IMG/VR virus record: IMGVR_UViG_3300011118_000005
Location: 1 to 64,000 of that record
Direction: 5' to 3' (one strand)
DNA length: 64,000 nt
From: a virus
The notes beneath the pieces were generated by a model. That model saw only the letters and a list, made by a program, of their open reading frames with translations, had not been told where the DNA came from and ran no database searches. Both the position numbers and the translations under genes were made by a program. Positions 1 to 13,064 of this stretch are shown here, one piece after another (within the stretch, counting starts at the first letter, position 1; the number at the start of each line of letters is the position of its first letter).

Positions 1-87
1 CATGTCTTCCCAGTCGTCGATCTCGACCTCATCACATAGTTCTGAGCCAATGAGTCGCGTTCTAACTGCAAATTTGATTAGTGTCAT
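1..87 (-). CDS. Hypothetical protein, C-terminus cut by window edge
   Basis: The reverse strand carries an open frame from an ATG at 85-87 to the window edge. It encodes 29 visible residues beginning MTLIKFAVRT and ending in an acidic stretch (EVEIDDWEDM). The ATG overlaps the TGA stop of the upstream membrane-protein gene (ATGA), the coupling used throughout this operon. Too little is visible to name it. Confidence 0.5.
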   Translation of the reverse strand, partial: MTLIKFAVRTRLIGSELCDEVEIDDWEDM

Positions 88-470
88 AATAGCTTCCCGA
101 TCTCTTGAATAAGGTAAAGGCGAGGCATGATCCAGGGCTTCATTGCAAGTGGCACAAGGCAAATCGCGGCCAGACCGAAACAAAAAGATGCAAATCCTGC
201 CAAGACAGAGGACGCTACACAATCAAATCGGGTTGCTGATACTGGACTATGTTGACGAGATAACAACCAGAAATAAATAGAAATTATACCAAGAATTAAG
301 GTGACAAGTATTAGGCACAACATGGTCCAAACAGAGCACACCTTTCCGTATGCTATAATCTCTTGTGCCACCAAGGGTGCCTGTTCGATCACAAACCCTT
401 CAGTGGCCTCAATGTACTCCTGTACCTTGTCGAGGCTGGAGATCAGTCTTTTCTGTAGTTCGTCTTTCAT
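84..470 (-). CDS. Small membrane protein, two predicted TM segments
   Basis: A 128-residue protein with a polar, probably helical N-terminal 40 residues, then two hydrophobic segments (about residues 45-68 and 85-108) separated by a short polar loop. No family was recognised. Hairpin membrane proteins of this size in phages include holins, but no endolysin is adjacent, so that role is only a possibility. Its stop overlaps the start of the next gene and its start overlaps the end of the gene before it. Confidence 0.6.
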   Translation of the reverse strand: MKDELQKRLISSLDKVQEYIEATEGFVIEQAPLVAQEIIAYGKVCSVWTMLCLILVTLILGIISIYFWLLSRQHSPVSATRFDCVASSVLAGFASFCFGLAAICLVPLAMKPWIMPRLYLIQEIGKLL

Positions 471-625
471 GATTTCCTCGCATTGATTGCTCTGGCTTGT
501 GCAGCAGCCTTAGCGCGTGTTGCATGGCCACCGCCGTCTACCGGCCCACCGCCGCTGCGGACTAGGCTCCCATCGGACTCCACGACTCTGTACTTCTTAC
601 CTCGTTTTGCTACTGTTGCTGGCAT
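467..625 (-). CDS. Short basic conserved phage-type protein
   Basis: A 52-residue basic protein starting MPATVAKRGKKYRVVE and ending in an Ala/Arg-rich helix (RAKAAAQARAINA). Two ATGs are adjacent. The second is chosen because it lies at proper distance from AAGGAG. Short proteins with this 'K-x-RVVE ... G-G-H ... AKAAAQARAIN' layout recur in phages and prophages with no known function, as far as I recall. Confidence 0.6.
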   Translation of the reverse strand: MPATVAKRGKKYRVVESDGSLVRSGGGPVDGGGHATRAKAAAQARAINARKS

Positions 626-650
626 CATTTCTCCTTGTAGTCTTGACAAT

Positions 651-908
651 TCATGCTAGTTCTCCGATACTTAGGAGATTATCCCAAATCGTATCTGAGT
701 ATTCAACCAGATAGTGCGGAGGATTTATGTCCGTTGACTCCACCTTTTCGCCCATACCACACAGAAAGTCGAAGAGGTCTTTGTTCTGGCAGACAACCCT
801 GTCTTCTATTCTTATATGGCCTTTCCCTTCACAGGCTGCCCAGTAACACTGCCTTACTATATCATAGCTAAGTTCGATTTCGTGCTTTAGTTGTGGGCCA
901 AACATCAT
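651..908 (-). CDS. Hypothetical protein
   Basis: An 85-residue soluble acidic protein with a predicted mixed alpha/beta character. The start has two consecutive ATGs behind GAGGAGAA, so either the first (908) or the second (905) may be used. The ATGA overlap with the upstream gene supports translation. No family was recognised. Confidence 0.55.
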   Translation of the reverse strand: MMFGPQLKHEIELSYDIVRQCYWAACEGKGHIRIEDRVVCQNKDLFDFLCGMGEKVESTDINPPHYLVEYSDTIWDNLLSIGELA

Positions 909-1165
909 TTCTCCTCAATACACTGTTGGTAATATGTCTGTAAGGCAAACATTGATCCAGCCGCCTTATACAATAGGTCTTGTAGATCATCTCTTTCTTC
1001 AGAGCATCCTAGTGCATCCCAGAGAGTAAACCAATTGCATCCAGCAGGGTGCGCCTCTGTTTCCAAGCTGCCTAATGCTTCTATCGCATCTTCAATAATT
1101 TCCTTCTTGTCCGCTCCAGTCTCATACTTGTAAAACTCTCGAATTATTTGTTCAGTTGTTGGCAT
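905..1165 (-). CDS. Hypothetical acidic helical protein
   Basis: An 86-residue protein (MPTTEQIIREFYKYETGADK...) that looks all-helical and acidic. The start at 1165 is preferred over upstream in-frame starts because GGAGGAT lies seven bases before it. It overlaps the preceding gene by 14 bases and the following one by ATGA. No function can be assigned. Confidence 0.55.
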   Translation of the reverse strand: MPTTEQIIREFYKYETGADKKEIIEDAIEALGSLETEAHPAGCNWFTLWDALGCSEERDDLQDLLYKAAGSMFALQTYYQQCIEEK

Positions 1166-1421
1166 CAGAACATCCTCCAAAATCGAACAAAAAATTAAAG
1201 TCAAAGAAGTGGCAGAGGTAATGTTCCTCCCACCCCTTGCCTGTACTCTTCACAATTTGTTCATGCAGATCCAGGTCGTCCCATTGCACCAGGACTTTAC
1301 GGGCGAGGTCATCAGTCAAGTATAGAGTCTCACTGCTCACGTCCATCAACAACCCCCTTTTCATCCAGCGCGATTTTAGGGGGCCACGATATCGGCCTGA
1401 TACGATTGGTATTTTACTCAT
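1152..1421 (-). CDS. Hypothetical protein
   Basis: An 89-residue protein starting MSKIPIVSGRYRG. The start is chosen because it overlaps the 3' end of the upstream gene by eight bases. An in-frame extension to 1469 would overlap that gene more deeply. The C-terminus is rich in Phe and Asp. No domain was recognised. Confidence 0.5.
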   Translation of the reverse strand: MSKIPIVSGRYRGPLKSRWMKRGLLMDVSSETLYLTDDLARKVLVQWDDLDLHEQIVKSTGKGWEEHYLCHFFDFNFLFDFGGCSDANN

Positions 1422-1584
1422 TAGATTTTTCCATGCGTTTAGCAATCTTGGCCCGCTGCTTCTTGGCACCCTCGCCTTTACCGAGGCGACGATCCAGGTC
1501 GGCCAGTTGTTGCTTCGGGCTCAGTTCAGCCCAGGACTCATTTCGCTCCACGGCTTCAGCGCGTTTCTCAGCTTTCGTCCTCAT
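1414..1584 (-). CDS. Short charged helical protein, conserved phage type
   Basis: A 56-residue, strongly charged helical protein (MRTKAEKRAEAVERNESW, then LSPKQQLADLDRRLGKGEGA). The Shine-Dalgarno TTGGAGAT precedes the chosen ATG. The pattern PKQQLADLDRRLGKG...KKQRAK is one I recall in many short phage proteins of unknown role. Confidence 0.6.
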   Translation of the reverse strand: MRTKAEKRAEAVERNESWAELSPKQQLADLDRRLGKGEGAKKQRAKIAKRMEKSNE

Positions 1585-1745
1585 TATAATCTCCAAGGAA
1601 TTTTTGTAGCAGGGCGTTTGATCTTTTTGGTTTTCAGGTAGCGTGCGTTCTTAGGCCGCTTGACCCTCCACAGAAGTTCAGTCATGAATAGTGCCAGTGA
1701 CACCAGTGCTACTGGGAAAAGTAGTGCGTATTGAAAAGTGCTCAT
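1584..1745 (-). CDS. Small single-pass membrane protein
   Basis: A 53-residue product with one hydrophobic segment (about residues 5-25), followed by a strongly basic tail of some 28 residues, so the C-terminus is probably cytoplasmic. AAGGAG lies five bases before the ATG. The stop overlaps the next start by one base. It belongs to a run of tiny membrane-protein genes. Confidence 0.6.
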   Translation of the reverse strand: MSTFQYALLFPVALVSLALFMTELLWRVKRPKNARYLKTKKIKRPATKIPWRL

Positions 1746-1927
1746 CAAAACTCCTTAATGCCACTATAAACAAGCGCTACCATGAACCAGCACAGGAACA
1801 CATAACCACCGAGGCTGCCCCAAAATGCAGCAGTCTGACCAGGAAAAGTTGCCACCGACAACCAAGAAATAAAGTATGGTGCGCCAGCAAAGAGAGCAAC
1901 AATTTGACATGAATTAAATAATCTCAT
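1745..1927 (-). CDS. Small membrane protein, two TM segments
   Basis: A 60-residue hydrophobic protein (MRLFNSCQIVALFAGAPYF...) with two hydrophobic segments around residues 5-27 and 33-55. The start behind GGGAGAT is chosen over an in-frame upstream start. It overlaps neighbours on both sides. No family was recognised. Confidence 0.6.
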   Translation of the reverse strand: MRLFNSCQIVALFAGAPYFISWLSVATFPGQTAAFWGSLGGYVFLCWFMVALVYSGIKEF

Positions 1928-2013
1928 TAGAATCTCCCACCTCCAAAGGCTACCCAACCGCACATGAATCCCAATCCAAGTGCGATAAGGTGAATTAGTA
2001 ACAGTTCGCTCAT
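1927..2013 (-). CDS. 28-residue membrane peptide
   Basis: A tiny gene with a near-perfect ribosome site (GGAGG, six bases, ATG). It encodes one hydrophobic helix (LLLIHLIALGLGFMCGWVAF). Its ATG overlaps the upstream stop (ATGA) and its stop abuts the next gene. The signals make it a credible micro-membrane protein although it is very short. Confidence 0.5.
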   Translation of the reverse strand: MSELLLIHLIALGLGFMCGWVAFGGGRF

Positions 2014-2210
2014 CTCATTCCTCCGAATACTTTATCTATATTGGCTTGGCCTACTAGATACCATAATTTTTTGTAGGCTTCTAAATCGAATACTGAATTG
2101 GGACTATCCATTATCAATTTTGCTTGTTTGTCTAACTCATCCAAGGTATCAAAATTGAAAGTCCATTTCTTTTCCGGGCTCCGCAGTTCCACTGTCTTTT
2201 TCTTTGTCAT
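2010..2210 (-). CDS. Hypothetical protein
   Basis: A 66-residue protein (MTKKKTVELRSPEKKWTFNF...). An N-terminal beta-like part is followed by helices. The ATG overlaps the stop of the 31-residue gene upstream. No family was recognised. Confidence 0.5.
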   Translation of the reverse strand: MTKKKTVELRSPEKKWTFNFDTLDELDKQAKLIMDSPNSVFDLEAYKKLWYLVGQANIDKVFGGMR

Positions 2211-2302
2211 ATTCTAAACACCCACTGCAAGGTTCCATAGCCAAGGAAGGCCACACCGATCCAAAAGGACCAAGACCACAAGTCGTACATAAGATCAATC
2301 AT
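2207..2302 (-). CDS. 31-residue Trp-rich membrane peptide
   Basis: A tiny gene behind AGGAAGAAA, coding for MIDLMYDLWSWSFWIG and onwards, a single aromatic hydrophobic helix. Its TGA overlaps the next ATG. Support comes from the ribosome site and the coupling, not homology. Confidence 0.45.
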   Translation of the reverse strand: MIDLMYDLWSWSFWIGVAFLGYGTLQWVFRI

Positions 2303-2309
2303 TTTCTTC

Positions 2310-2552
2310 CTAGCAATAAAAAAAGTCTGGATTCAAGACTGCCTTACGATGTGGTTTTCCAAAATCACCAAAAATTGGATCAACAAGCTGAGCCTGCCAC
2401 AGTCTATCGATTACTTGATCTATAGTTAGTCCTGTTTTGAAGTAAGGTCTAATCAATTCACGATATTCATTTTTGGTCACAGGAAACCAATCTCTATACT
2501 CATGAAAAATCATGTTTTCAATAGATTGATCTAAATTAGCAAGTGTAATCAT
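2310..2552 (-). CDS. Hypothetical protein with YFKxGL motif
   Basis: An 80-residue protein starting MITLANLDQ behind GGATGGGAT. The stretch RELIRPYFKTGLTIDQVI resembles RKLLRSYFKSGLDKRFF in the product of 2939-3205, suggesting that the two are diverged paralogues. Function unknown. Confidence 0.5.
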   Translation of the reverse strand: MITLANLDQSIENMIFHEYRDWFPVTKNEYRELIRPYFKTGLTIDQVIDRLWQAQLVDPIFGDFGKPHRKAVLNPDFFYC

Positions 2553-2695
2553 TATCCCATCCAATAATAGTGGACTCTTTGACGGTAAATACGGTCTATC
2601 ATGGCCGCCGTCCAACCCAGTACCGACCAAGACAGAAAGGCTGAACCAAACCAAATGCTGTAAGTAAAAATTTCTACGAAAACTGTCGGTATCAT
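2552..2695 (-). CDS. Small membrane protein
   Basis: A 47-residue product (MIPTVFVEIFTYSIWFGSAF...) with one long hydrophobic segment and a basic, Tyr/Trp-rich C-terminus. It is coupled at both ends (ATGA at its start, TAATG-like overlap at its stop). No family was recognised. Confidence 0.5.
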   Translation of the reverse strand: MIPTVFVEIFTYSIWFGSAFLSWSVLGWTAAMIDRIYRQRVHYYWMG

Positions 2696-3150
2696 TCGTG
2701 ACTCTTATCCAATACTATGTCTAATATAAAGAATATCAAAAGTACACAGAGTGCGACCATACAGCACACTATGGTTGCTACAGCTAATGTAATAAACACC
2801 GGGTGCATTGGCTGCTCCTCGGACTCCTCTAGCGCCCATTTGTATGATACAGGTATGTACGATGTTCCCCAATTATGACCAATCGTGAATAGTGTGGCCG
2901 AGAATTGTCCGCTTCTTTCGTCCGTTCGCACCGACCATTTATTTGAGGCAATGCGGGTAACTTCCAGGTCGGAAGTAGTCGTCCAAATCCTTACGTCTTG
3001 GTACCTTGCGGGGAACCGCAGATATGGCATAGAGAAGATCAAAGAATCGCTTGTCGAGCCCGCTTTTGAAGTAACTTCTAAGCAGTTTTCTGTGGGCGTC
3101 AGCGGAGTGGGCTGGTTCGCGGTCAAGGCTAATAATATAATTGTAATCAT
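2692..3150 (-). CDS. Putative surface protein: signal-like N-terminus, C-terminal TM anchor
   Basis: A 152-residue protein with a short hydrophobic N-terminus (MITIILLALTANQ), a beta-rich middle of about 100 residues and one strong C-terminal transmembrane helix (about residues 118-145). This is a type I membrane layout. An internal ATG at 2808 has an excellent GAGGAG site and could give a 38-residue anchor alone. It overlaps another plausible gene (2939-3205) by 212 bases in a different frame. Both protein sequences look genuine, so the extent of this gene is uncertain. Confidence 0.45.
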   Translation of the reverse strand: MITIILLALTANQPTPLTPTENCLEVTSKAGSTSDSLIFSMPYLRFPARYQDVRIWTTTSDLEVTRIASNKWSVRTDERSGQFSATLFTIGHNWGTSYIPVSYKWALEESEEQPMHPVFITLAVATIVCCMVALCVLLIFFILDIVLDKSHE

Positions 3151-3205
3151 TTCTTATTTTTTTCAGATCCTCGAATAGTTTCTTCCGCCTGTCCTCAATC
3201 GACAT
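2939..3205 (-). CDS. Hypothetical protein overlapping the membrane-protein gene
   Basis: An 88-residue basic helical protein (MSIEDRRKKLFEDLKKI...). It contains RKLLRSYFKSGL, similar to part of the 2310-2552 product. The ribosome site is weak. It shares 212 bases with the gene ending at 2692, so either a true out-of-frame overlap exists or one of the two is not expressed. Confidence 0.4.
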   Translation of the reverse strand: MSIEDRRKKLFEDLKKIRNDYNYIISLDREPAHSADAHRKLLRSYFKSGLDKRFFDLLYAISAVPRKVPRRKDLDDYFRPGSYPHCLK

Positions 3206-3212
3206 TTTAGCG

Positions 3213-3395
3213 CTATGGGGTTTGATTGAAACTGGTATCAATGGCATTAGCCGAACTATCGAAACTTCCTGCTGTAGCATACGAAAGCAATTGAATCGAG
3301 AATAGACAAGCTCCGACGATGAGCGATAGCATGACAGCATACTCAACAGTCGTAGGACCATCTTCGCTCGACAAAAAATTCTTGATAAAACGCAT
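3213..3395 (-). CDS. Flp/Fap-type (type IVb) pilin homologue
   Basis: A 60-residue prepilin-like protein. A short basic leader of 13 residues ends in Gly, followed by PTTVEY and a hydrophobic helix (AVMLSLIVGACLFSIQLL). This is the class IVb layout: cleavage after G13, Glu at +5 (E18) and Tyr at +6 (Y19), then the N-terminal alpha-helix of Flp pilins. In bacteria such pilins are matured by a TadV/CpaA-like peptidase and assembled by the Tad machine. No tad genes are near, so host machinery would be needed. TTGGAGTAC precedes the chosen ATG. The closest variants I recall (EDGPTAVEYAVML) are planctomycete. Confidence 0.75.
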   Translation of the reverse strand: MRFIKNFLSSEDGPTTVEYAVMLSLIVGACLFSIQLLSYATAGSFDSSANAIDTSFNQTP

Positions 3396-3419
3396 AGTGT
3401 ACTCCAAGGGTCAAATTTA

Positions 3420-3659
3420 TTATTGATTATCTAAGGAACAGCATATATCCGTTATGCCGGAGTTCAATTCCTCCCTTAAATCTCTTACCTCTTCTGATGC
3501 GCTACCTACGTTATCGGCGAGTCGATTCACCGCCTCAATCAGTGGGTGCAGTAAGGAAGCCACTTCCCCATACTCCAGAGGGGAACTAGGCATGGATAAA
3601 TTCTCCAGGGCTTTTACACCGTTCGTCATCATATCGAAGTCTTGTGCACTCCAAGTCAT
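3420..3659 (-). CDS. Hypothetical protein with C-terminal coiled coil
   Basis: A 79-residue acidic protein. The second half (about residues 35-70) shows heptad-like hydrophobic spacing typical of a coiled coil. AGGAG precedes the ATG. It lies immediately downstream of the tmRNA gene and may share its transcript. No family was recognised. Confidence 0.55.
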   Translation of the reverse strand: MTWSAQDFDMMTNGVKALENLSMPSSPLEYGEVASLLHPLIEAVNRLADNVGSASEEVRDLREELNSGITDICCSLDNQ

Positions 3660-3679
3660 AGTTCTCTCCTAAGTTAAAG

Positions 3680-3996
3680 TGGAGGCGTGGGGAATCGAAC
3701 CCCAGTGCCGTAATCTCTCCATGTGAGCGTCTACAAGTTTGTCTGCTAACCGCAGCGGCTCGGTGGCCACCTTGAGCGGCTTACTTTAAGTTACCTGACA
3801 GCCGCAGTCAGGACCGAGCCACATTGGTGACGGGCATCAGAGGCGTTGTGGCGACCCCTCTGGACCCGGCTGCTAGGCAGCGAGTGCGTAGTTTGCTTCA
3901 GCGCTTGAAGGTTCTGGTCGGCTTTTTAAGTGGCCCGCTGACCAACCACTACTTGCAACTCACACTTTGACAATCCGGTCGATACCAGTCGCCCCC
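3680..3996 (-). ncRNA. ssrA: Transfer-messenger RNA (tmRNA)
   Basis: A one-piece tmRNA of about 317 nt. The 5' end GGGGGCG pairs with CGCCTCC at the 3' end (seven pairs, one G-U), followed by discriminator A. CCA is not encoded. The T-arm CTGGGGTTCGATTCCCC lies just upstream of the 3' end, and a D-loop-like GACTGGTATCGACCGG follows the 5' end. Between them is the tag frame at 3873-3902. tmRNA with SmpB rescues stalled ribosomes and tags the product for proteolysis. No smpB is visible here, so host SmpB is presumably used. Boundaries come from the acceptor stem. Confidence 0.9.
3873..3902 (-). other. tmRNA tag-peptide frame AEANYALAA
   Basis: Within the tmRNA, nine sense codons followed by TAG encode A-E-A-N-Y-A-L-A-A. 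The ALAA end is the degron recognised by ClpXP-type proteases. The resume codon is inferred to be GCT. Upstream in-frame codons exist, so the tag could start slightly earlier. Confidence 0.8.
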
Positions 3997-4003
3997 TCTA
4001 CAG

Positions 4004-4222
4004 TCAGATTAGAAGATGCTCATTGTCCACGTACCGGTCGATACCTTGACCAAGGAACGCCTCACCGTCCGGGTCGGACTTGTTCAGCAGCGCGGCGATG
4101 ACCATAGCATCATACTCATGACACTCCAGTATCGTGAAGGCTCCCCTTGCACTTGAGTACATGACGAAGCTGGTACACTCCGAGCCTCCCTCAGTCTCTA
4201 CATAGTAATGTGGCATAATCAT
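4004..4222 (-). CDS. Hypothetical protein
   Basis: A 72-residue protein (MIMPHYYVETEGGSECTSF...) of predicted alpha/beta type. AGGAG precedes the start, and it is the first gene after the promoter at 4245-4273. It lies directly upstream of tmRNA, which is probably co-transcribed. No family was recognised. Confidence 0.6.
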   Translation of the reverse strand: MIMPHYYVETEGGSECTSFVMYSSARGAFTILECHEYDAMVIAALLNKSDPDGEAFLGQGIDRYVDNEHLLI

Positions 4223-4244
4223 ATAGTTTTTCTCCTGTATCTAT

Positions 4245-4273
4245 ATAGTAGCTTACGGAATCCAAGGAGTCAA
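4245..4273 (-). promoter_or_regulatory. Sigma70-type promoter for 4222 gene and tmRNA
   Basis: Reading leftward: TTGACT (4268-4273), 17 bases, TACTAT (4245-4250). The predicted start near 4238 gives a short leader with AGGAG before the ATG at 4222. tmRNA follows 7 bases after that gene's stop. Confidence 0.7.
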
Positions 4274-4274
4274 G

Positions 4275-4655
4275 TTAATTCCGGTGTAATTGCTGCCAAT
4301 CGCTCTTGAGGATTTCCCAGCTATCGAAGTGCATACGGCCAAATATTTCGGCCAAAGCCTCACAGGCGTCCCTAGCGTACACGACGCACTCGATGCCTTC
4401 TGGCATAGCCTCCATTTTAGTAGGTGGGAACTCTCCCTTGATGGGCCACACTTGCGGCCTGTCTTCATCAGCATCCTTGAAGTAAACTACAAAGGGCCGC
4501 TCATTAACACCGCAACGGTTCATACCGTTCAACTTAAAATTGAGCACCCGGAGACCGGGAGTCTTACCGGTTTGGATGTACCCCATGCCAGACGCGACAC
4601 CCAACACTTCGCCGTCACCGCTCACTACAACATGTACTGTATCGCCAGTATTCAT
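4275..4655 (-). CDS. Hypothetical protein
   Basis: A 126-residue protein. A predicted beta-rich N-terminal half (MNTGDTVHVVVSGDGEVLGVA) is followed by a helical C-terminus. GGAGGAT lies before the ATG, which overlaps the upstream TAA by one base. No recognised domain. Confidence 0.6.
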   Translation of the reverse strand: MNTGDTVHVVVSGDGEVLGVASGMGYIQTGKTPGLRVLNFKLNGMNRCGVNERPFVVYFKDADEDRPQVWPIKGEFPPTKMEAMPEGIECVVYARDACEALAEIFGRMHFDSWEILKSDWQQLHRN

Positions 4656-4978
4656 TACGATCCTCCTAAGATTAGTTCTACGTTGATTGGCTCATCGCAC
4701 AAAGCACACTTCTGGTATGTGGTACCAGTCTCTTCCCAGGTGATGTTGCCCTCCAAGATCGAGCCCGCGAGATAGGCTCCACGAATCCTAGCAGCCCGCC
4801 TTTTCTTCTTGAGGCGGGCCGTCCTACACTTCTTGCCTCCGACACGGTCCTTCCGCGCGACTGCCTTGTCTTGCTGGTGGCGGGTCTTTGGCATCTTGGG
4901 CGGCTTTTGGTCGGTGAACCAACATTCCCTACCAGCGCCATCGGCGATAACCAGGGTCTTGCCTTCTAGGTCGATCAA
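4655..4978 (-). CDS. Basic zinc-ribbon-like protein, TTG start
   Basis: A 107-residue protein with a very basic middle (about residues 35-68, many Lys/Arg) and a C-terminal CALC pair. The start is TTG at 4978, because AAGGAG lies six bases before it and no ATG is suitably placed. The charge suggests nucleic-acid contact. No family was recognised. Confidence 0.5.
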   Translation of the reverse strand: MIDLEGKTLVIADGAGRECWFTDQKPPKMPKTRHQQDKAVARKDRVGGKKCRTARLKKKRRAARIRGAYLAGSILEGNITWEETGTTYQKCALCDEPINVELILGGS

Positions 4979-4988
4979 TGGATTCTCC

Positions 4989-5549
4989 TTAATTCTCAGC
5001 AGTAATCTTGTTTTTTAATGAGTCCGATAAAGGTGTGGTTATAACCTGCTTGTCAATCTCAACGAGTTCACCGTCTATAATGGTTTTCTTGTAGGTAGTC
5101 TCCTGTCGATGCGTAGCGCGGTTGCTAGGCATCCCGTTTGCCATGCTACCAATGTATACTACCTCTCGCCCAGTAACCGCAGCTTCCTGTTTCAGAAGTT
5201 CATTCAGTCTCTCGGCGGCAATCTCCTCAGCGTGCGATTCGTCTTTGGCCCAGAACACACATAAGGCTCCTATATAGTCTCCCCAGCTAAGTTCCTTCCA
5301 CTCGTGCTCCATACAGTCATTGGAGACCCTTTTCAATCGATCTCCGGTCTGGCCATAGGCATTTTTGATCTCATAGGTGTACTGCCACAAGTCCATTGGC
5401 TCAATATCAGGCAACTTCTGATCGAGTCCATGGTCTTCAACGTAATCATAGTTGTAATAATTGCGGAAGGCTTCTGCATCCTCTTCGGTAGAAAACACGC
5501 CTTTGATAGTGTAATCCGAATAGTCGCCATGTGTTACAATGTAAATCAT
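4989..5549 (-). CDS. Conserved phage-type protein with N-terminal DUF7336-like motif
   Basis: A 186-residue acidic protein beginning MIYIVTHGDYSDYTIKGVFS. The 'Y-x-V-x-x-G-x-Y-S-D-Y ... V-F-s-t-e-e-d-A' start matches a small domain common at the N-terminus of phage proteins of unknown role. The remainder is unrecognised. AAGGAAGAA precedes the ATG directly after the stop of the last repeat gene, so it is probably the last gene of that transcript. Confidence 0.6.
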   Translation of the reverse strand: MIYIVTHGDYSDYTIKGVFSTEEDAEAFRNYYNYDYVEDHGLDQKLPDIEPMDLWQYTYEIKNAYGQTGDRLKRVSNDCMEHEWKELSWGDYIGALCVFWAKDESHAEEIAAERLNELLKQEAAVTGREVVYIGSMANGMPSNRATHRQETTYKKTIIDGELVEIDKQVITTPLSDSLKNKITAEN

Positions 5550-5556
5550 TTCTTCC

Positions 5557-5745
5557 TTATCTCCCAGATACAGACCGAGACCCAGACCCAGACCCAGACC
5601 AAGACAAAAACCCAGACCAAGACCAAGACAAAAACCCAGGCCAAGAACAAGGCCAAGAATCAGATCCAGACCTAGATCCAGACCTAAACCGAGACCTAGA
5701 CCTAGACCCAGACCAAGACCGATATTTATATTTTTTGGATTTCAT
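5557..5745 (-). CDS. Ser-Arg/Gly/Trp dipeptide-repeat protein D
   Basis: A 62-residue low-complexity protein: leader MKSKKYKYR, then alternating Ser with Trp, Gly or Arg (SWSGSRSRSRFRS...). The alternation follows from the NGGTCT unit, in which TCT is Ser and TGG/GGG/CGG/AGG give Trp, Gly, Arg, Arg. Its ATG overlaps the stop of copy C (ATGA) with GGAG nearby. It ends just before the ribosome site of the 4989-5549 gene. Predicted disordered and highly basic. RNA or acidic-surface binding is only a guess. Confidence 0.6.
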   Translation of the reverse strand: MKSKKYKYRSWSGSRSRSRFRSGSRSGSDSWPCSWPGFLSWSWSGFLSWSGSGSGSRSVSGR

Positions 5746-5918
5746 CGTTTACTCCAAGACCCAGACCCAGACTGAGACCGAGACCCAGACCAAGAACCAG
5801 CCCACCACCAAGATGGAGACCAAGACCCAGATCGAGACTGAACCACAGACCTGGACCCAGACCAAGACCTAGATAAAAACCTAGATAGAGACCGATATTT
5901 CTGTTTTTTGGATCTCAT
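5742..5918 (-). CDS. Ser-Arg/Gly/Trp dipeptide-repeat protein C
   Basis: A 58-residue protein with the leader MRSKKQKYR. It is followed by the most degenerate of the four repeat domains, which includes a VVQ interruption and a WWW run. The reading frame is still intact and the stop overlaps the start of copy D. The ATG lies a few bases after the stop of copy B. Retention of frame despite decay of the repeat argues for selection on the protein. Confidence 0.55.
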   Translation of the reverse strand: MRSKKQKYRSLSRFLSRSWSGSRSVVQSRSGSWSPSWWWAGSWSGSRSQSGSGSWSKR

Positions 5919-5921
5919 TAT

Positions 5922-6110
5922 TTATGTCCCAGACCGAGACCAAGACCGAGACCAAGACCGAGAACCAGACCGAGACCAAGACCGAGACCAAAACCAAGAC
6001 CAAGACCAAGGCCTGCACCGAGAACAAGGCCCAGACCCAGACCCAGACCGAGACCAAAACCAAGACCAAGACCAAGGCCCAAACCGAAATTTCCGTTTGT
6101 TAGATTTCAT
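5922..6110 (-). CDS. Ser-Arg/Gly/Trp dipeptide-repeat protein B
   Basis: A 62-residue protein with the leader MKSNKRKFR and then a Trp-rich repeat (GPWSWSWFWSRSGSGSG...), broken once by a short Cys-containing stretch. AGGGG precedes the ATG, which lies inside the 3' end of copy A. Same layout as copies C and D. Confidence 0.6.
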   Translation of the reverse strand: MKSNKRKFRFGPWSWSWFWSRSGSGSGPCSRCRPWSWSWFWSRSWSRSGSRSWSRSWSRSGT

Positions 6111-6357
6111 AGTTGCCCCTAGACCTAGACCGAGCCCAAGACCCAGACCCAGAACCAGACCGAGACCAAGACCAAGACCCAGACCGAGACCAAGACCAAG
6201 TCCCAGACCGAGACCCAGACCGAGACCAAGACCTAGACCAATACCTAGACCAATACCTAGACCAAGACTCAGGTCCAGACCAAGACCAAGACCGAAACCC
6301 AGACCGAGACCCAGACCGAGACCAGGGGCGATATTTATTTTTCTTAGAAGTTGTCAT
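6100..6357 (-). CDS. Ser-Arg/Gly/Trp dipeptide-repeat protein A
   Basis: The longest copy at 85 residues: leader MTTSKKNKYR, then long alternation of Ser with Arg, Gly and Trp, ending RSRGNYEI. Its ATG overlaps the stop of 6354-6614 (ATGA). The four copies share a leader of the form M-[KRT]-[ST]-[SKN]-K-x-K-[YF]-R and thus form a tandem family within one operon. Confidence 0.6.
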   Translation of the reverse strand: MTTSKKNKYRPWSRSGSRSGFRSWSWSGPESWSRYWSRYWSRSWSRSGSRSGTWSWSRSGSWSWSRSGSGSGSWARSRSRGNYEI

Positions 6358-6614
6358 TTCACATCGCCGAATGATTCAATTGCCGAGATCTGCACGTATG
6401 CCGCTTTTCCCGGCAATTGTTGAGCATCTCTCCATCCTGGATCAGAAAAAGATCCAGTCTCATACACAATTGAGGCATCTTCCAATTTGATGCAGGTATC
6501 ATTGATACCGACCAATTTGCCAGTGTAAATATAATTCATACACCAGACGGCAATCGGGTTTCCGAGGTATGCTGCCAATCCTTCATTCTCATTGTCTTCA
6601 ACAATTACTTTCAT
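6354..6614 (-). CDS. SH3/Sm-like small barrel protein, conserved phage type
   Basis: An 86-residue protein. The central part (YIYTGKLVGINDTCIKLEDA, then YETGSFSDPGW) matches a family of short phage proteins with the pattern YxTGxLxxxxxxxLxLEDAxxxxxTGxFS. These look like SH3/Lsm-type barrels and have no established function that I know of. TGGAGAT precedes the ATG. It heads the segment carrying the repeat genes. Confidence 0.6.
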   Translation of the reverse strand: MKVIVEDNENEGLAAYLGNPIAVWCMNYIYTGKLVGINDTCIKLEDASIVYETGSFSDPGWRDAQQLPGKAAYVQISAIESFGDVK

Positions 6615-6644
6615 CTCAAAATCTCCAGGTCAAAGGGGTTAAAA

Positions 6645-7211
6645 CTAACTTCGCTTCCTCTCGATTATGTTGTGCCCAGGGCAATCTTTCAGGTACCAAA
6701 AAAACTCATCAGCGATCCAGGGCCGATAGTCGCCCAGGTAGCTCTTGGCGTGGTCCACCCCCACGTCCATTGAGCGGCGTCCAGGAAGGCCCAGCGACAT
6801 ACATGCCTCATATACCGCATTGTGGTGGACGTGTCCGTAGGCGTGATATGTGCCGTAGTGGCAGCGGTCCCAGTAGGCCGTAGGGTAGTGGCAGCACCAG
6901 ACTCGCTTGTCTCCGACTTTGATCATCTTCTGTTGCCACACATTGCCACCGAAGACCGCGCGGGTCTTACGCTCGTTGTCATGGTTTCCCAAGATGAAGA
7001 ACGTATGTCGGCACCTGATTTGAGGACGCCAGCGCCCAGGCTTCTTGTAGGCGAAGTCTCCCAGAATCACTAGCGTATCATTTCGGTCAACGTGACTGTT
7101 AATCTGGTCCAGGAGATGCTCATCGTGCTGTTTGCAATCCACGAATTGTGGCCTAGTCTCCTTGACTAGGCCCTCACAATTGAAATGTGTGTCGCTGGTG
7201 AACCAGATCAT
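6645..7211 (-). CDS. Calcineurin-like metallophosphoesterase
   Basis: A 188-residue enzyme with the complete two-metal motif set: D7-T-H9, G-D52-F, G-N76-H77-D, H108 (CCHYP) and G-H127-V-H129. Single-domain phosphoesterases of this form in phages hydrolyse phosphodiesters or monoesters. The substrate cannot be read from sequence. A location in the cytoplasm is implied by absence of a signal peptide. The start ATG overlaps the 3' end of the wHTH gene. Confidence 0.85.
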   Translation of the reverse strand: MIWFTSDTHFNCEGLVKETRPQFVDCKQHDEHLLDQINSHVDRNDTLVILGDFAYKKPGRWRPQIRCRHTFFILGNHDNERKTRAVFGGNVWQQKMIKVGDKRVWCCHYPTAYWDRCHYGTYHAYGHVHHNAVYEACMSLGLPGRRSMDVGVDHAKSYLGDYRPWIADEFFWYLKDCPGHNIIERKRS

Positions 7212-7633
7212 GCTTCTTCTCTCGGCAGTCTTAATCGCTGTCGCAATTGTTCGATAAGTATCTTAGACGATGGCTCATAAACCCAGCCAAAAGCTAACAA
7301 GAACTTTAGCATCTTTTCATGTAGTTCAGCGGTTGGCATCCTTTTAGGTAGTTTAATAGGTGGATCTCCTGTTACCTTATAGGTTTTTACTTTCATGCCG
7401 GAGTTCGGGTCTGTCTTGACGCCAGTAGTCTTTAGGACACCCATCAACTCTAACTCTCGCACACGGGGCGCTATCCTGCGGAAGTCTGTAGGCACTCTTC
7501 CAAGGACTCCGCAAACATCGGCTTGAGAAAAATTCTCCGGCAGCTTGCAGGCACACTCCAGGACTTTTGCTCGGGCCTTTGATATGCGACCATCAGATAT
7601 TGCTTCGTAATATGCCTCAATTGAAGTATTCAT
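7208..7633 (-). CDS. Winged-helix DNA-binding protein, paralogue of 12654-13064
   Basis: A 141-residue protein that opens MNTSIEAYYEAISDGRISKA. A helix-turn-helix/wing-like middle (FSQADVCGVLG...RVRELELMGVLKTTG) and a helical C-terminal extension follow. The same N-terminal MNTSIEAY and the 'E-x-x-GV-x-x-x-G-x-K-x-DP' wing occur in 12654-13064, so they are paralogues. The fold suggests transcription or replication-initiation-type DNA binding. The role is not known. Confidence 0.65.
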   Translation of the reverse strand: MNTSIEAYYEAISDGRISKARAKVLECACKLPENFSQADVCGVLGRVPTDFRRIAPRVRELELMGVLKTTGVKTDPNSGMKVKTYKVTGDPPIKLPKRMPTAELHEKMLKFLLAFGWVYEPSSKILIEQLRQRLRLPREEA

Positions 7634-7809
7634 ATATTTCTCCAGGCCCAGTTTATCGAATAATATATTGAAGCATAGTGCCGACGTTCACGTTCTTCCA
7701 GTCTTTGTCGGACCCATTTGTTCATTTGGAAATTTGGATCTCTCCGGGCCTGCATTATGGCCTCTGGGCTATCTGAATATTGTAGCAGTTCTAATTCTCG
7801 GCTTGTCAT
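7630..7809 (-). CDS. Hypothetical basic helical protein
   Basis: A 59-residue protein (MTSRELELLQYSDSPEAIMQ...) with a basic helix KWVRQRLEERERRH. AAGGAG lies upstream and the stop overlaps the next ATG (ATGA). No family was recognised. Confidence 0.55.
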   Translation of the reverse strand: MTSRELELLQYSDSPEAIMQARRDPNFQMNKWVRQRLEERERRHYASIYYSINWAWRNI

Positions 7810-7829
7810 AGTCTACAGAACTCCTTATC

Positions 7830-8369
7830 CTAAAATTCATACCCGGTTAGCAGAAGATCGGTGGCGAACCGTTTAGCCACTGCCGCCTTAGTCACATCGT
7901 TGTAGTACACTCGGTAATCTCGGTCTCGCTCCAGCACGCCATAGGGCTCGGTTTTCACCGGCTCCATTCCGGCTTCTAACATGAGATTGTGGAGATCCTC
8001 TTCCAAATTCTCGAATCTCAGTACACGATTCGCCCATTGCAGACCGTAGTAGTACGGGTCATTATCCTCTACGTAGTATCCGCTTTTGAACCCGCCTAGC
8101 ACATAGGGCTCAAATTCTCCAGGCTTCGTCCGTACCCCACGCTCCTCAAAGTGCCAATTGAAATACCAGGATACTGCGAGATCGAATGGATTACGAATGG
8201 TGCAGGCAACAATGCCTCCATCTGCAAGGATCTGCTCGCATCTTTTAGGGACCGCAGTGTGGTGCCCGTCGTGAGTATCACACCCAGCAGCCACTAGCGC
8301 CTTTCCAGTGGCCCGGCTCGCCGTGCGAGGGTGCCCAATAAAGGCAAACTTGTCGCCTAGCACATACAT
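7830..8369 (-). CDS. Sulfotransferase-like protein
   Basis: A 179-residue protein resembling PAPS-dependent sulfotransferases. It has an N-terminal strand-loop FAFIGHPRTASRAT (the phosphosulfate-binding loop, PRTAS) and CTIRNPFDLAVSW, which matches the 3'-phosphate-binding strand/helix (R-N-P-x-D). The C-terminal YRVYYNDVTKAAVAKRF...GYEF is typical of the family's last helix. A second homologue lies at 29329-30003. A phage substrate is unknown; virion or host glycans are possible. It overlaps the coiled-coil gene by 13 bases. Confidence 0.75.
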   Translation of the reverse strand: MYVLGDKFAFIGHPRTASRATGKALVAAGCDTHDGHHTAVPKRCEQILADGGIVACTIRNPFDLAVSWYFNWHFEERGVRTKPGEFEPYVLGGFKSGYYVEDNDPYYYGLQWANRVLRFENLEEDLHNLMLEAGMEPVKTEPYGVLERDRDYRVYYNDVTKAAVAKRFATDLLLTGYEF

Positions 8370-9466
8370 TCTTCATCCTCCCAAGGATACGTGCCGTCGA
8401 CAGTATGGTAGGCGTCGTACATTCGTTGTACTACCTGCTTCACTTCTTCTTTATCCCAATTCAGTAGCATACGCTTGGACCAATTGCCAGCCCACGTAGT
8501 GGCGGCATCGCAGTAGCGAAGATTCCGCGCGTGGTTCTCCTGGATTTCCTTGCTCGGAATTTGTTTGCGTAACGCACTCATCTCCTCGCCCATCGCATTT
8601 GCTGTACCTTTCCACAGTTCGATTGTTCCTTTGGCTTTTGCCAATTTAGCTACTAATAAATTGACGCCCTCTCTGTCGGGAACCTGTTTGCGGGCTTCTT
8701 GTAAACTATCTTCCAACAACGCTATGTAATCCATTGTTCTTTTGTAGAACTCCAACTTCTCCTCAAGTTCTTTTACCCTTTCCTGCAAGACAATTCCTTC
8801 GCCTGCCATTACCTCATTTGAGGCAGCTATTTCGACCCAATATCTTATTGCTTTTTTACAGGCTTCCAATTCATTCACTAATTTGTACTCTCTGTCGGGA
8901 ACCTGTTTGCGGGCTTCTTGTAAATCCTCCATGTTTGAGCCAGCTATATTGACCCACTGTTCCACTGTTCTTTTGGAGATTGCCAATTTCTCCTCAAGTT
9001 CTTTTATCCTTTCCTCTAAAGCATGATTGTCGGTCACTTCCCGGCAAGCATTTCGATTCCCCAGCAGGCTATAAATACGATGATATTGATCATTGTATAG
9101 CCGGGCTTTCTTGACCCAGAAAGTGCGCTCCTTTTGAGCCTCAGTCACGTCGTCGTTCAAGTCATTGACTTCGTCTTCCAGTTCATCGATCCGATCTTCA
9201 TTACCTTCAATGATACCATTCAAGGCGGTTATCTCTTTTTCACATTTGGTGACGTACTCAGAACCATCTTGAATGGACTCAAGCTGGTCATTAGCCTTAT
9301 CCAGTTCGCACTTTGTGTCCTGCAATTCTTGCTCAGCAAACCTCAAATCCGTGGTTCTGTTCTCCAAGATTTTAGCGAGGCGGGCCGTTTCATGGTAAGC
9401 AGAAACGGACCTTTTTTCTATCTCTTTTTCTACAAGTTGGTCAATATGGTCAGTTATTTCACTCAT
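8357..9466 (-). CDS. Long coiled-coil protein with internal repeats
   Basis: A 369-residue, largely coiled-coil protein. At least two near-identical modules (LQEARKQVPDRE) follow repeated ELEEKL...W segments, and a third, more diverged one reads LRKQIPSKE. At the DNA level a stretch of more than 30 bases recurs at about 8671 and 8889. The start MSEITDHID at 9466 is preferred because GGGGGAT precedes it. Function unknown; elongated structural or scaffold-like roles are possible. Confidence 0.65.
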   Translation of the reverse strand: MSEITDHIDQLVEKEIEKRSVSAYHETARLAKILENRTTDLRFAEQELQDTKCELDKANDQLESIQDGSEYVTKCEKEITALNGIIEGNEDRIDELEDEVNDLNDDVTEAQKERTFWVKKARLYNDQYHRIYSLLGNRNACREVTDNHALEERIKELEEKLAISKRTVEQWVNIAGSNMEDLQEARKQVPDREYKLVNELEACKKAIRYWVEIAASNEVMAGEGIVLQERVKELEEKLEFYKRTMDYIALLEDSLQEARKQVPDREGVNLLVAKLAKAKGTIELWKGTANAMGEEMSALRKQIPSKEIQENHARNLRYCDAATTWAGNWSKRMLLNWDKEEVKQVVQRMYDAYHTVDGTYPWEDEECMC

Positions 9467-9767
9467 AGTATCCCCCATCGGCATCGCAGTCATCTGCGTA
9501 ATCGTGTAAGTAGGTATGGTCAAATTCATTTTCCAGGTGGAGCCAAGCCAGTTCCTGAACATCCTCTTCCCAGGAGTTAAATTCTCCTCGCTTCAAGTCA
9601 TACTCCACGCCTATGACTCTATTGACCTGGACTCCAGTAATCTCTATATCACCTCCCTCTGGAGGGTCCATGTAGGTAGCAGGTATCAGTAGACTCCGGT
9701 CGAACTCTACAGTGACCTCAACAGTGAGAGCGTTAAGGTAAACCTTTGTATCAAAACTATACGTCAT
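9459..9767 (-). CDS. Hypothetical acidic protein
   Basis: A 102-residue acidic protein starting MTYSFDTKVYLNALTVEVTV, beta-rich at first with an Asp/Tyr-rich tail. AAAGGAAGATT precedes the chosen ATG, which lies within the end of the upstream gene. No family was recognised. Confidence 0.55.
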   Translation of the reverse strand: MTYSFDTKVYLNALTVEVTVEFDRSLLIPATYMDPPEGGDIEITGVQVNRVIGVEYDLKRGEFNSWEEDVQELAWLHLENEFDHTYLHDYADDCDADGGYYE

Positions 9768-10251
9768 AATCTTCCTTTGTCCAGCGGTCGAGTAAATTTT
9801 CCAATGCTTCACCAAGCTCTCCGGAGCCCCAACCCATTTCACAGTCGTGCAAAAAGTTTTTTAGCAGGAGCAAATCTGTTTTATAGCAGTCATGGTCCTT
9901 TTCAGCAATGTTCTGCCGTCTCCATTCGTGTAATCTTTTCAGCGCTTGGGCGTGATTCTTCCTATGCTTTACCACAACCGCCCACAAATTCTTTTCCTTG
10001 GCCCTGGCCCGTTCCTTTCTTTTCTTAGCGTCCCTGGCCTTTTTCTTGGCGGCGTTAGCGGACCTCTCTACTTGCATTTCGCTGGATTTCTTAATACTCA
10101 TCCCAGCCCTTTTCAGCGCCTCAATCGTCTTGGCTTGTCTTACTATAGCATCAGGGTCGCCTGCCTCTACCTTCGCTTGAAACTCCTGTTCCTGTATTTC
10201 ACACTTCTGTGTGAACCCAGCCAGCCAGTTTAATTGTTGTGGTATTGCCAT
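9757..10251 (-). CDS. Hypothetical protein with basic helical centre
   Basis: A 164-residue protein. The middle (about residues 60-95) is a run of Lys/Arg/Ala typical of a long basic helix, flanked by acidic ends. It is the first gene after the hairpin at 10275-10305. Nucleic-acid contact is possible but unproven. Confidence 0.55.
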   Translation of the reverse strand: MAIPQQLNWLAGFTQKCEIQEQEFQAKVEAGDPDAIVRQAKTIEALKRAGMSIKKSSEMQVERSANAAKKKARDAKKRKERARAKEKNLWAVVVKHRKNHAQALKRLHEWRRQNIAEKDHDCYKTDLLLLKNFLHDCEMGWGSGELGEALENLLDRWTKEDYDV

Positions 10252-10274
10252 ATCATAATTCTCTAAAAGGGGTG

Positions 10275-10305
10275 GGGGCGGGTGGTGGACAAGGCCACCC
10301 GCCCC
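10275..10305 (-). terminator. Strong GC hairpin, probable terminator of the ATPase gene
   Basis: Reading leftward, GGGGCGGGTGG (11 bases), a 9-base loop and its exact complement CCACCCGCCCC. TTTT follows six bases after the stem. It lies between the stop of the 10330-11709 gene and the next start. The stem is perfect. The T-run is short and offset, so termination may be partial. Confidence 0.6.
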
Positions 10306-10329
10306 AAGTTCACCGCACCCCCCACACCA

Positions 10330-11709
10330 TTATACACACAGTTCGACGATCATATCGAAAGCAAAGTTTTGGAAATCCCGGCTGCAATCAGTGCTGCCGG
10401 TAATGTAGTGGGCAACCTCTTCGATGGCAGTCTTCAAAGCGATTTTGCCGCCTAAGTCTTCTCGGATCGACACCTCGCTGCTCCCTGGAGTGTAGAAGCC
10501 GAGGCACTCGCCTTCTCCGTCCATAAGCTGCTTGAAGCATTTGACTCCAGGCTTGCTCTTGCCGCCTGTCATCCCGACAACCTCACACCAGCCCCAGACT
10601 TGATCCACAGCTTTCTGCGCTTCCTCGGTAATCTCACAATCAATCCTCCCGGCTGCGCCAGCTTTACCCAAAACAGTGGCCACATTGTCCACTCCCATAT
10701 CTTGGGCAACCTTGACAAAGGCATCTGACTTAACCACTTGGACATTGTGTCCCTTGGCCTTAACATGCTCAGCAATAGGGCTTCGGCCCATCATTTCAGA
10801 GGCAATCACAGACTCGCCAGCAAAATCTTTCCATCCCTGAACCCAGTTCTCCTTTACCTCATCTGAATCACAGTATCCGAGATAATAGTCGTCCAGGCCG
10901 CTTTCGTAAACATCGCCTTCCGAGAGTTTCTTGAAAAATTGGGTTAGAATTTCAGGAGTGGCTTCATTGATAATCTGGCCAATGGTGCCTCGCAAAGCAT
11001 ACTCACTGCTATTGCGGCTTTCATCGATATCGATCTGGCTCGCTTTGAGATTATAGTCAAAGACGGCTTGCGACCTGGACGACAATTCTCGGATTTTCAC
11101 GCCCTCTCGGAAGATTGTAGGTCCGGAAGATTCAGGGTTCTTTTTGAGAAATGTCTGATTCAGGGCATCGGGGTTGCCCGAAAAGTGGAGGAAATTCTTG
11201 CCGAGATCCCTATGAAATTTCCTAACTTCTTCGTTATCGTAATCGATAAATACTCTAGTGGTTCCAGACTTATTCCGAATCTTGTCAACAACGGTGACAG
11301 TGGGAAGTTCGTCTCCCACGATTTTCGCCCAGTCAATTGCGTTTGACACAAACTCTCGGAGAGCCATGCTGATCTCGGTCCAATCCAGTTCTCCAAACTC
11401 CGTGGTCCATGCGCAATCAATTATTCGATTAGTCTTGCCCTTGCATTTGCACTTAACTGGATACGATTCCCGAACTGTACCATCGGCATCTGTAACGTAA
11501 TCGGTCTCAAAGTAAAAATCAAGGGTCGTGCCATCCGTGCAGACTTTGAAAGGGATTCCAGCACGGAGCATAATGTTGATTCCATGCTTATTGCCAGACC
11601 CGAACTGGCCAATGGTTCCGTCACAATCGGAATAGCGGGCTCCACTGCAACCAAGGCGAGTGAAGGCAGTGATGGGGGCGATTCCGGGGTTTTCGATCAT
11701 CAGGTACAT
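10330..11709 (-). CDS. GHKL-type ATPase-like protein with degenerate metalloprotease-like C-terminus
   Basis: A 459-residue protein. It carries E119-F-V-S-N123-A-I-D126, matching the N-box (ExxxNAxD) that binds Mg-ATP in GHKL ATPases (Hsp90, MutL, histidine kinases, MORC). A glycine-rich GQFGSGNKHG (34-43), like the ATP-lid G2 box, comes before it, so the order differs from classical GHKL proteins. The last 35 residues read IEEVAHYITGSTDCSRDF, recalling HExxH zinc-protease helices with the first His replaced by Glu. I recall similar phage proteins annotated only as ATP-binding. It has its own promoter (11749-11777) and a terminator-like hairpin downstream. Confidence 0.6.
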   Translation of the reverse strand: MYLMIENPGIAPITAFTRLGCSGARYSDCDGTIGQFGSGNKHGINIMLRAGIPFKVCTDGTTLDFYFETDYVTDADGTVRESYPVKCKCKGKTNRIIDCAWTTEFGELDWTEISMALREFVSNAIDWAKIVGDELPTVTVVDKIRNKSGTTRVFIDYDNEEVRKFHRDLGKNFLHFSGNPDALNQTFLKKNPESSGPTIFREGVKIRELSSRSQAVFDYNLKASQIDIDESRNSSEYALRGTIGQIINEATPEILTQFFKKLSEGDVYESGLDDYYLGYCDSDEVKENWVQGWKDFAGESVIASEMMGRSPIAEHVKAKGHNVQVVKSDAFVKVAQDMGVDNVATVLGKAGAAGRIDCEITEEAQKAVDQVWGWCEVVGMTGGKSKPGVKCFKQLMDGEGECLGFYTPGSSEVSIREDLGGKIALKTAIEEVAHYITGSTDCSRDFQNFAFDMIVELCV

Positions 11710-11748
11710 GGTGTAGTCTCCAGTGAAAATAAGGTGAACTCTATTAAC

Positions 11749-11777
11749 AGTCTACACTGCGGAACCGTCGCTGTCAA
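11749..11777 (-). promoter_or_regulatory. Sigma70-type promoter for the GHKL-like gene
   Basis: TTGACA (11772-11777), 17 bases, TAGACT (11749-11754), reading leftward. The segment after the -10 contains TAATAGAGTTCAC, a 13-base match to the same position of the promoter at 13809-13837. The promoter overlaps the end of the Lar-like gene, and the predicted leader carries GGAG eight bases before the ATG. Confidence 0.75.
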
Positions 11778-11991
11778 ATCTTTTATTCCATTTTTGCAAT
11801 ATTATGTCTTTGGCCACTTTTGTAACATCATAGTGACCTGCGAACCGGTCCCACATTTGAGTGTCTTCAACGAATCCACAGCCACAATCTCTGCAACGGA
11901 TGCTCACAGTATCCGGTGTGTAGCCATGGTCGCCCAGGTGTGACCTTATCTGAACTTCTTTTCCACAGAATGGGCAGGGTTTGATATTCAT
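11752..11991 (-). CDS. Lar-like restriction-alleviation zinc-finger protein
   Basis: A 79-residue protein starting MNIKPCPFCGKEV. Cys pairs C6/C9 and C33/C36 (RCRDCG) form a zinc ribbon, and the C-terminal ILQKWNKRF matches the W-N-x-R ending of the Lar family. Lar of the Rac prophage eases EcoK restriction, but many members are simply small zinc proteins of unknown role, so the name is by resemblance. Confidence 0.6.
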   Translation of the reverse strand: MNIKPCPFCGKEVQIRSHLGDHGYTPDTVSIRCRDCGCGFVEDTQMWDRFAGHYDVTKVAKDIILQKWNKRFDSDGSAV

Positions 11992-12176
11992 GATAATGTG
12001 TGAAGTACCTGAACCAGTTCATATACAACCCAGGATGCACTGTCGCTTGATACACTTTGCTCTGCCAAGGCGTCCAGCCCTTCTTGCCGAGTCTGGTAAG
12101 TACCAAGAACTTTTATCAAATCGTCGGAACCTGCTTGTTCATCTCCAACACAGTATTTTTGGAGCCTATAATTCAT
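11988..12176 (-). CDS. Hypothetical protein
   Basis: A 62-residue protein starting MNYRLQKYCVGDEQ. The start is uncertain, with no strong ribosome site; it is chosen because it begins just after the upstream stop. The stop overlaps the Lar-like start. No family was recognised. Confidence 0.45.
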   Translation of the reverse strand: MNYRLQKYCVGDEQAGSDDLIKVLGTYQTRQEGLDALAEQSVSSDSASWVVYELVQVLHTLS

Positions 12177-12180
12177 TTGT

Positions 12181-12447
12181 TCACATAGATAAAAAGAACA
12201 GGATGGAGACCAGGGCAGTAGCTCCAAGGATGAAAATAATCCCGGCCTGTAACAGAAAAACCATCAGGCGTATGGGATGACGTTTGCTTATTCTGTTAAA
12301 CTCTCTCTTGTCATGGATAAAAGGATCACTCACCCTGTCAATTGGGTATCCCTTTACCCGAATGTTGCGATACTTGACTATCTCATCACCAATCACAGAA
12401 TTTCTTTGGATTAAATTGGCCCAGTATTCCTTAGATTTGTGTTTCAT
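12181..12447 (-). CDS. Tail-anchored membrane protein
   Basis: An 88-residue protein. Some 60 basic, soluble residues are followed by one hydrophobic segment at the very C-terminus (MVFLLQAGIIFILGATALV). This suggests a cytoplasmic N-terminal domain anchored at its tail. No family was recognised. Confidence 0.55.
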   Translation of the reverse strand: MKHKSKEYWANLIQRNSVIGDEIVKYRNIRVKGYPIDRVSDPFIHDKREFNRISKRHPIRLMVFLLQAGIIFILGATALVSILFFLSM

Positions 12448-12448
12448 T

Positions 12449-12661
12449 TTACCAACAATCGTAGTTTGTTATGTCCTTTTCTTCCCCGCTTTGATTATCC
12501 TTAACGACACAGGCGGTCCCTATTCCGCAACCGGAGAAGCAATAAGTTAGGCGCAGTCCTACGCCTCCCAGACACCCTGGCTCATTTGGAGGCAAAGTTT
12601 TGACCCATTCACGGAGTGTATCCATTTCTTCTTCATAAATCGTAAATATCTTTTTAGCCAT
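12449..12661 (-). CDS. Hypothetical Cys-containing small protein
   Basis: A 70-residue protein with five Cys (C30, C41, C45, C51, C69) clustered in CLGG...CFSGCGIGTAC. It may bind metal or form disulfides. Its stop is two bases from the next start. No family was recognised. Confidence 0.5.
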   Translation of the reverse strand: MAKKIFTIYEEEMDTLREWVKTLPPNEPGCLGGVGLRLTYCFSGCGIGTACVVKDNQSGEEKDITNYDCW

Positions 12662-13064
12662 TTTCGTTCACAAACTTTCTCAATTTAGGTTCTAATGACC
12701 AAGCAGTGGTTCCGTTGTCCAGGCACCTCAAAAGAACTTCGACCTCTCCCCGATTCAATCTAATGGTCTTCTGCTTTGATTTGACTTTAGTTGTGGGTGC
12801 TGCTACCAATGCGTATGTCTTCACTTTGTTAGTGGAGACAGGATCGATCTTGGTGCCAATACATTCGATAACCCCGCTGTCCTCTAGTTCCGCGAATCGA
12901 GGATGAAATGACGATGAAGTATCTTTATAATTTCGGTCCACGTCTCGCTGACTGACCCCATTTTGTCCAGGATTCTTCAGCATGAATTTAATTACATCCC
13001 ACTGACGGTTGCTAATGAATCCAGAATCTTTTGCTTTTTGATATGCTTCAATTGATGTATTCAT
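12654..13064 (-). CDS. Winged-helix DNA-binding protein, paralogue of 7208-7633
   Basis: A 136-residue protein beginning MNTSIEAYQKAKDSGFISNR. The helix-turn-helix/wing region SQRDVDRNY...RFAELEDSGVIECIGTK aligns with the other copy, and both carry a short basic tail (KVKTYALV versus KVKTYKVT). A regulator or replication accessory is likely. Targets are unknown. Confidence 0.65.
   Translation of the reverse strand: MNTSIEAYQKAKDSGFISNRQWDVIKFMLKNPGQNGVSQRDVDRNYKDTSSSFHPRFAELEDSGVIECIGTKIDPVSTNKVKTYALVAAPTTKVKSKQKTIRLNRGEVEVLLRCLDNGTTAWSLEPKLRKFVNENG

Follow-up and report, generated by a model that had tools for sequence, protein, structure and literature searches.

tmRNA genes are uncommon in phages: they were found in 402 of 18,146 phage genomes (2.3%; PMC9004378), which agrees with a remark in the initial annotation of the locus described here. 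Known phage tmRNAs include those of Bxz1 and related phages, of Wildcat and of phage G, and a shortened form in the mycobacteriophage DS6A, for which titration of SmpB or alanyl-tRNA synthetase by the tRNA-like domain has been proposed (PMC4131195). The marine methylophage Melnitz encodes an ssrA gene that works with host-supplied partners (PMC9004378), and some huge phages carry both tmRNA and SmpB (PMC7162821).

Here, we analyzed a window of 64,000 nucleotides (positions 1 to 64,000) of the IMG/VR virus record IMGVR_UViG_3300011118_000005, a linear fragment of 66,681 bases. The window contains a further example of the established phage tmRNAs. With the mycobacteriophages Bxz1, Cali, Catera and Wildcat and with Bacillus phage G (tmRNA Website, PMC4131195) it shares a phage-encoded ssrA gene, but it belongs to another phage lineage with probably another host phylum. 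As in Melnitz, the partners would be supplied by the host; the Melnitz tmRNA, however, is permuted, two-piece and linked to a riboswitch, whereas the RNA in the window is one-piece and no such element was found with it. With DS6A it has the tRNA-like domain in common, but DS6A lacks the tag domain. Like the bacterial one-piece tmRNAs (RF00023) it has an acceptor stem with G3-U70, a T-arm, the pseudoknots PK1 to PK3, a GCN resume codon and a short hydrophobic tag ending in LAA; it differs from them in its location in a phage record between small open reading frames (ORFs), in the lack of an encoded CCA, in an unclear PK4 and in its rare tag.

The gene was identified by two independent detectors, which agree on place, strand and tag. 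ARAGORN reports a tmRNA with the tag AEANYALAA* on the minus strand at 3679-3996, and the Rfam model RF00023 matches the same strand at 3677-3996 over its whole length (1-374) with 104.7 bits (E 7.7e-40), well above the curated gathering score of 47 bits. The initial annotation had proposed a one-piece tmRNA with this tag, and its coordinates are exact to the base, as shown by the positions of both acceptor strands and of the discriminator; the strand is an addition made here. This is the sole tRNA-type gene called by ARAGORN across the window, and scanning all of it under permissive settings returned the same tmRNA again and no second complete one.

The elements of the RNA are listed in the table. 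Acceptor stem, T-arm and tag frame, all read from the letters in the initial annotation, are confirmed, and the tRNA-Ala-like domain is complete (G3-U70, T-arm and discriminator A). The G3-U70 wobble is the signal read by alanyl-tRNA synthetase in tRNA-Ala and tmRNA. The resume codon GCU lies at nt 95 of the tmRNA, and its frame ends with an in-frame UAG. Each of PK2 and PK3 is formed by two perfect 6-bp helices, and at least two arrangements of this 6+6 bp type were found in only 39 of 5000 dinucleotide shuffles; a looser 5+5 bp scan did not separate the tmRNA from shuffles. Thus, the pseudoknots and the resume context expected of a tmRNA are present, and PK4, which is variable among bacteria, is the one unclear element. 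CCA is not encoded at the 3′ end, so its addition would depend on a host enzyme.

Features of the tmRNA locus, of the Ro60-like locus and of tmRNA-type RNAs in related phage records. Positions are those of the window unless a record is named; PK, pseudoknot.
Feature	Position	Strand	Remarks
One-piece tmRNA (ssrA)	3680..3996	-	mature body about 317 nt; ARAGORN and RF00023
Acceptor stem, 5′ strand GGGGGCG	3990..3996	-	pairs with 3681-3687; G3-U70 wobble
Acceptor stem, 3′ strand CGCCUCC	3681..3687	-	discriminator A at 3680
T-arm UGGGGUUCGAUUCCCCA	3688..3704	-	RF00023 alignment
PK1	3916..3950	-	AGUGG/CCACU and GGUC/GACC, one A-C mismatch
Tag frame AEANYALAA and UAG	3873..3902	-	resume codon GCU, A at -4
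Helix 5 type hairpin GCUGC-CUA-GCAGC	3869..3881	-	around the tag stop codon
PK2	3818..3868	-	CAGAGG/CCUCUG with GCCACA/UGUGGC
PK3	3776..3812	-	CCUGAC/GUCAGG with GCGGCU/AGCCGC
Region expected for PK4	3746..3775	-	Rfam alignment only; no clear pairing seen
72-aa ORF upstream of tmRNA	4004..4222	-	ends 7 nt before the tmRNA 5′ end
79-aa ORF downstream of tmRNA	3420..3659	-	starts 20 nt past the tmRNA 3′ end; GGAGAGA before ATG
Flp-type pilin-like small ORF (MRFIKNFLSSEDGPTTVEYAVMLSLIV...)	3213-3407	-	Pfam Flp_Fap below cut-off
Ro60-like gene	13839-15422	-	Pfam TROVE, vWA_Ro60; 12 kb from tmRNA
Three Y-RNA-like hairpins	~15991-16053, 15911-15981, 15711-15779 (within 15709-16055)	-	upstream of Ro60-like gene
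tRNA-like RNA, 129 nt	15778-15906	-	45.6 bits to RF00005; among the hairpins
RNA ligase	19183-20322	-	PHROG 968, E 2.4e-48
tmRNA of G024/L063			complete; tag ATPMAMAA
tmRNA of G007/L065	L065 1501-1870 = G007:C1:9674-10043	-	complete; in tRNA cluster
tmRNA of G009/L064	L064 1501-1920 = G009:C1:135818-136237	-	complete
tRNA-like domain of G011/L066	L066 1501-1581 = G011:C1:60430-60510	-	81 nt, tRNA-like domain only, G3-U70

The tmRNA lies within a run of minus-strand genes, flanked with almost no spacer by two small ORFs on the same strand. This tight packing suggests that it is probably co-transcribed with them. Promoter-like sites are no commoner than in shuffles, and excision from a longer transcript is what we infer from this arrangement. 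The record has a phage replication gene set and encodes DNA polymerase, primase, helicase, exonuclease, ligase and ribonucleotide reductase (RNR), as well as a ParB-like protein, thymidylate synthase, RNA ligase and a DNA methylase. No capsid or terminase gene was identified among the proteins scanned, and the assignment to a phage is therefore based on the IMG/VR origin, on the phage-type replication genes and on the related contigs. The first two of these bear out the view that the tmRNA is carried by a phage. SmpB was found neither in this record nor in 23 related records and must therefore come from the host, which fits the expectation in the initial annotation that a functional tag would require host SmpB. 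A tyrosine integrase and an RF-1 domain were also sought in the record and not found.

We conclude that 3680-3996 is very probably a functional phage-encoded ssrA gene, judged by its sequence and predicted structure. Following established tmRNA biology, the RNA would be transcribed with the flanking genes and then released by RNase P of the host and by processing at its 3′ end. After CCA addition by the host, alanyl-tRNA synthetase would charge it through G3-U70, and host SmpB and EF-Tu would carry the charged tmRNA to ribosomes that have stalled on mRNAs which are broken or lack a stop codon. Translation would restart at GCU, the nascent chain would gain (A)AEANYALAA, and the LAA end would route the tagged protein to proteases of the ClpXP type. 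In infected cells, where the breakdown of mRNA and the action of host nucleases or toxins may stall more ribosomes and the tmRNA of the host itself may run short, ribosome rescue would continue. Such sustained rescue is, more tentatively, the likeliest benefit for the phage; the initial annotation had named rescue of phage translation, tagging of host proteins and replacement of a cleaved host tmRNA as candidate benefits.

To place the gene among its relatives, 61 viral contigs were gathered via the ribonucleotide reductase and 31 records were scanned with RF00023. Matches above the cut-off were found in four of them: three are complete tmRNAs and one is a tRNA-like domain only. G3-U70 is kept in all five RNAs (that of the window and the four related ones), while the acceptor pairs 4-6 vary with pairing intact. 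A constant G3-U70 next to co-varying pairs is a sign that alanylation is selected for. In each of the four complete phage tmRNAs, a GCN resume codon is located at nt 95-96, with an A at -4. Taken together, these sequence comparisons provide good evidence of selection on alanine charging and on the resume site in these phages. The first helix of PK1 is CGCGG/CCGCG in the tmRNA of G024/L063, a compensatory change compared to AGUGG/CCACU in the window, and the A-C mismatch is common to both. Among the viral contigs searched, the PK1 motif of the window tmRNA was found in G024 only, and the tag AEANYALAA in no other contig.

The 81 nt RNA of G011/L066, which consists of the tRNA-like domain with G3-U70 only, resembles DS6A and could suggest that such RNAs mainly titrate host SmpB or alanyl-tRNA synthetase and thereby block trans-translation of the host. 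For the window tmRNA we regard this as very improbable, because its tag domain is intact: the copy is not reduced to the tRNA-like domain as in DS6A but keeps tag frame, resume context, stop codon and pseudoknots, all of which a decoy would not need. A large tRNA array lies near the G011/L066 RNA.

The tags of the complete tmRNAs are very different. Besides AEANYALAA and ATPMAMAA, reading by hand (there is no ARAGORN call for either RNA) gives a 23-aa tag in G007/L065, ANSFPNSLSMEDAEILCGASVLV, ending in ASVLV, and a frame in G009/L064 that would give 36 aa, AKTKMVMLEDEDFGGITFDLTPASAFGYGPGVRAQA, ending in RAQA. The latter is unusually long and its end is not LAA. This diversity might indicate that a working phage tmRNA attaches a tag purposely unlike that of the host, so that products of stalled ribosomes are sorted differently, with faster, slower or no degradation. 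Such reprogramming, a variant of the functional ssrA gene and compatible with it, seems improbable for the window, where the tag is nearly standard and has an ordinary LAA end.

The closest relatives according to RNR (75%) are G001 and G022. Both records are fragments, and neither contains a tmRNA above the cut-off or a match to the genes flanking the tmRNA of the window; as far as fragments allow, this suggests that not all members of the lineage carry the gene. A blastn search with the tmRNA and with positions 1-20000 of the window against 50,697 phage records gave no match. G022 also encodes tRNA-like RNAs in which the anticodon arm is shortened or extended (L111 14070-14139, L111 18005-18095 and L112 617-717), which are possibly tRNA decoys or unusual tRNAs.

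The gene might also be a passenger, a host ssrA acquired by imprecise excision or left as an attachment-site remnant, that does nothing for the phage. Prophages can use host ssrA as an integration site (PMC9004378), and the related record G009 contains a phage integrase gene. We consider this origin highly improbable, since the copy is complete and lies within a run of genes, and since related phages have distinct tmRNA copies of their own; moreover, the record has no tyrosine integrase, and a near-identical bacterial source is absent from the genomes searched. Nucleotide matches of the phage gene to sampled Acidobacteriota tmRNAs are short only, a divergence that would be expected of a gene kept by phages and not of a fresh pickup.

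The initial annotation took the start of the tag as a pointer to a planctomycete host. This was not supported by a comparison of exact tags: AEANYALAA, in any codon spelling, occurs in only two of 84,980 genome species of bacteria and archaea. Both belong to the Acidobacteriota, and in both the tag is located inside a true tmRNA. The nearest relative of the RNR in cultured phages is that of Tunturiibacter phage Tunturi_3 (60%), the host of which is an acidobacterium. Altogether, three proteins match Tunturi_3; the two beyond RNR come from reading frames antisense to the RNR gene. Tag and RNR thus lean to Acidobacteriota, but neither clue is decisive. Since the wider tag type AExN[Y/F]ALAA is also rare there (3 of 396 Acidobacteriota) and the tmRNA matches are short, no host is named.

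The Flp-type pilin-like ORF near the tmRNA is possibly host-derived. It has no phage match and no viral relative, its plasmid matches are weak, and weak matches were found in 3 of 247 Acidobacteriota. Its EDGPTTVEYAVML stretch may be reminiscent of planctomycete pilins; the phrase did not occur in the literature searched. With a Flp_Fap score below the cut-off and only these weak matches, the ORF was dropped as a means of naming the host.

A second locus related to RNA is encoded on the same strand. As in Breeniome (Bxz1-type), the tmRNA phage also carries a gene for a Ro-like protein. The three hairpins upstream of it have the motif GGCCGAAGAUYAAGGGUUAU...ACUUGCC and weakly match RF01656 (best 37.6 bits, cut-off 38), a family of nematode small RNAs with a relationship to Y RNA. 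The tRNA-like RNA among them has an acceptor stem, a D-arm and a T-arm, with a Y-like hairpin in place of the anticodon loop. The same tRNA/Y hybrid, with lengths of 119-147 nt, is located directly upstream of the Ro genes in the related loci L075, L077, L078 and L079 (two copies). Upstream of the actinophage Ro genes (Breeniome, L153) the order is reversed, with Y strand, T-arm, D-arm and Y strand, as in bacterial YrlA; the hybrid is thus a circular permutation of this YrlA-type arrangement. No description of such a hybrid was found in the literature searched, a set that does not include the main bacterial Y RNA papers.

RNA ligase, tmRNA and the Ro/Y locus together are suggestive of a set for RNA repair or quality control. 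That the tmRNA is one part of an RNA-damage kit with the RNA ligase, the Ro60-like protein, the Y-RNA-like hairpins and the tRNA/Y hybrid is a doubtful proposal at present. If true, such a kit would act against host defences that cleave tRNA and mRNA, with the tmRNA clearing stalled ribosomes and Ro/Y and the ligase handling the broken RNAs.

With the gene described here, the small set of phage tmRNAs gains a well-formed member from a lineage without a close cultured relative. Related phages have strongly different tags and, in one case, the tRNA-like domain alone. This set of tmRNAs would permit a direct test of ribosome rescue against protein re-tagging and against blocking of host rescue.
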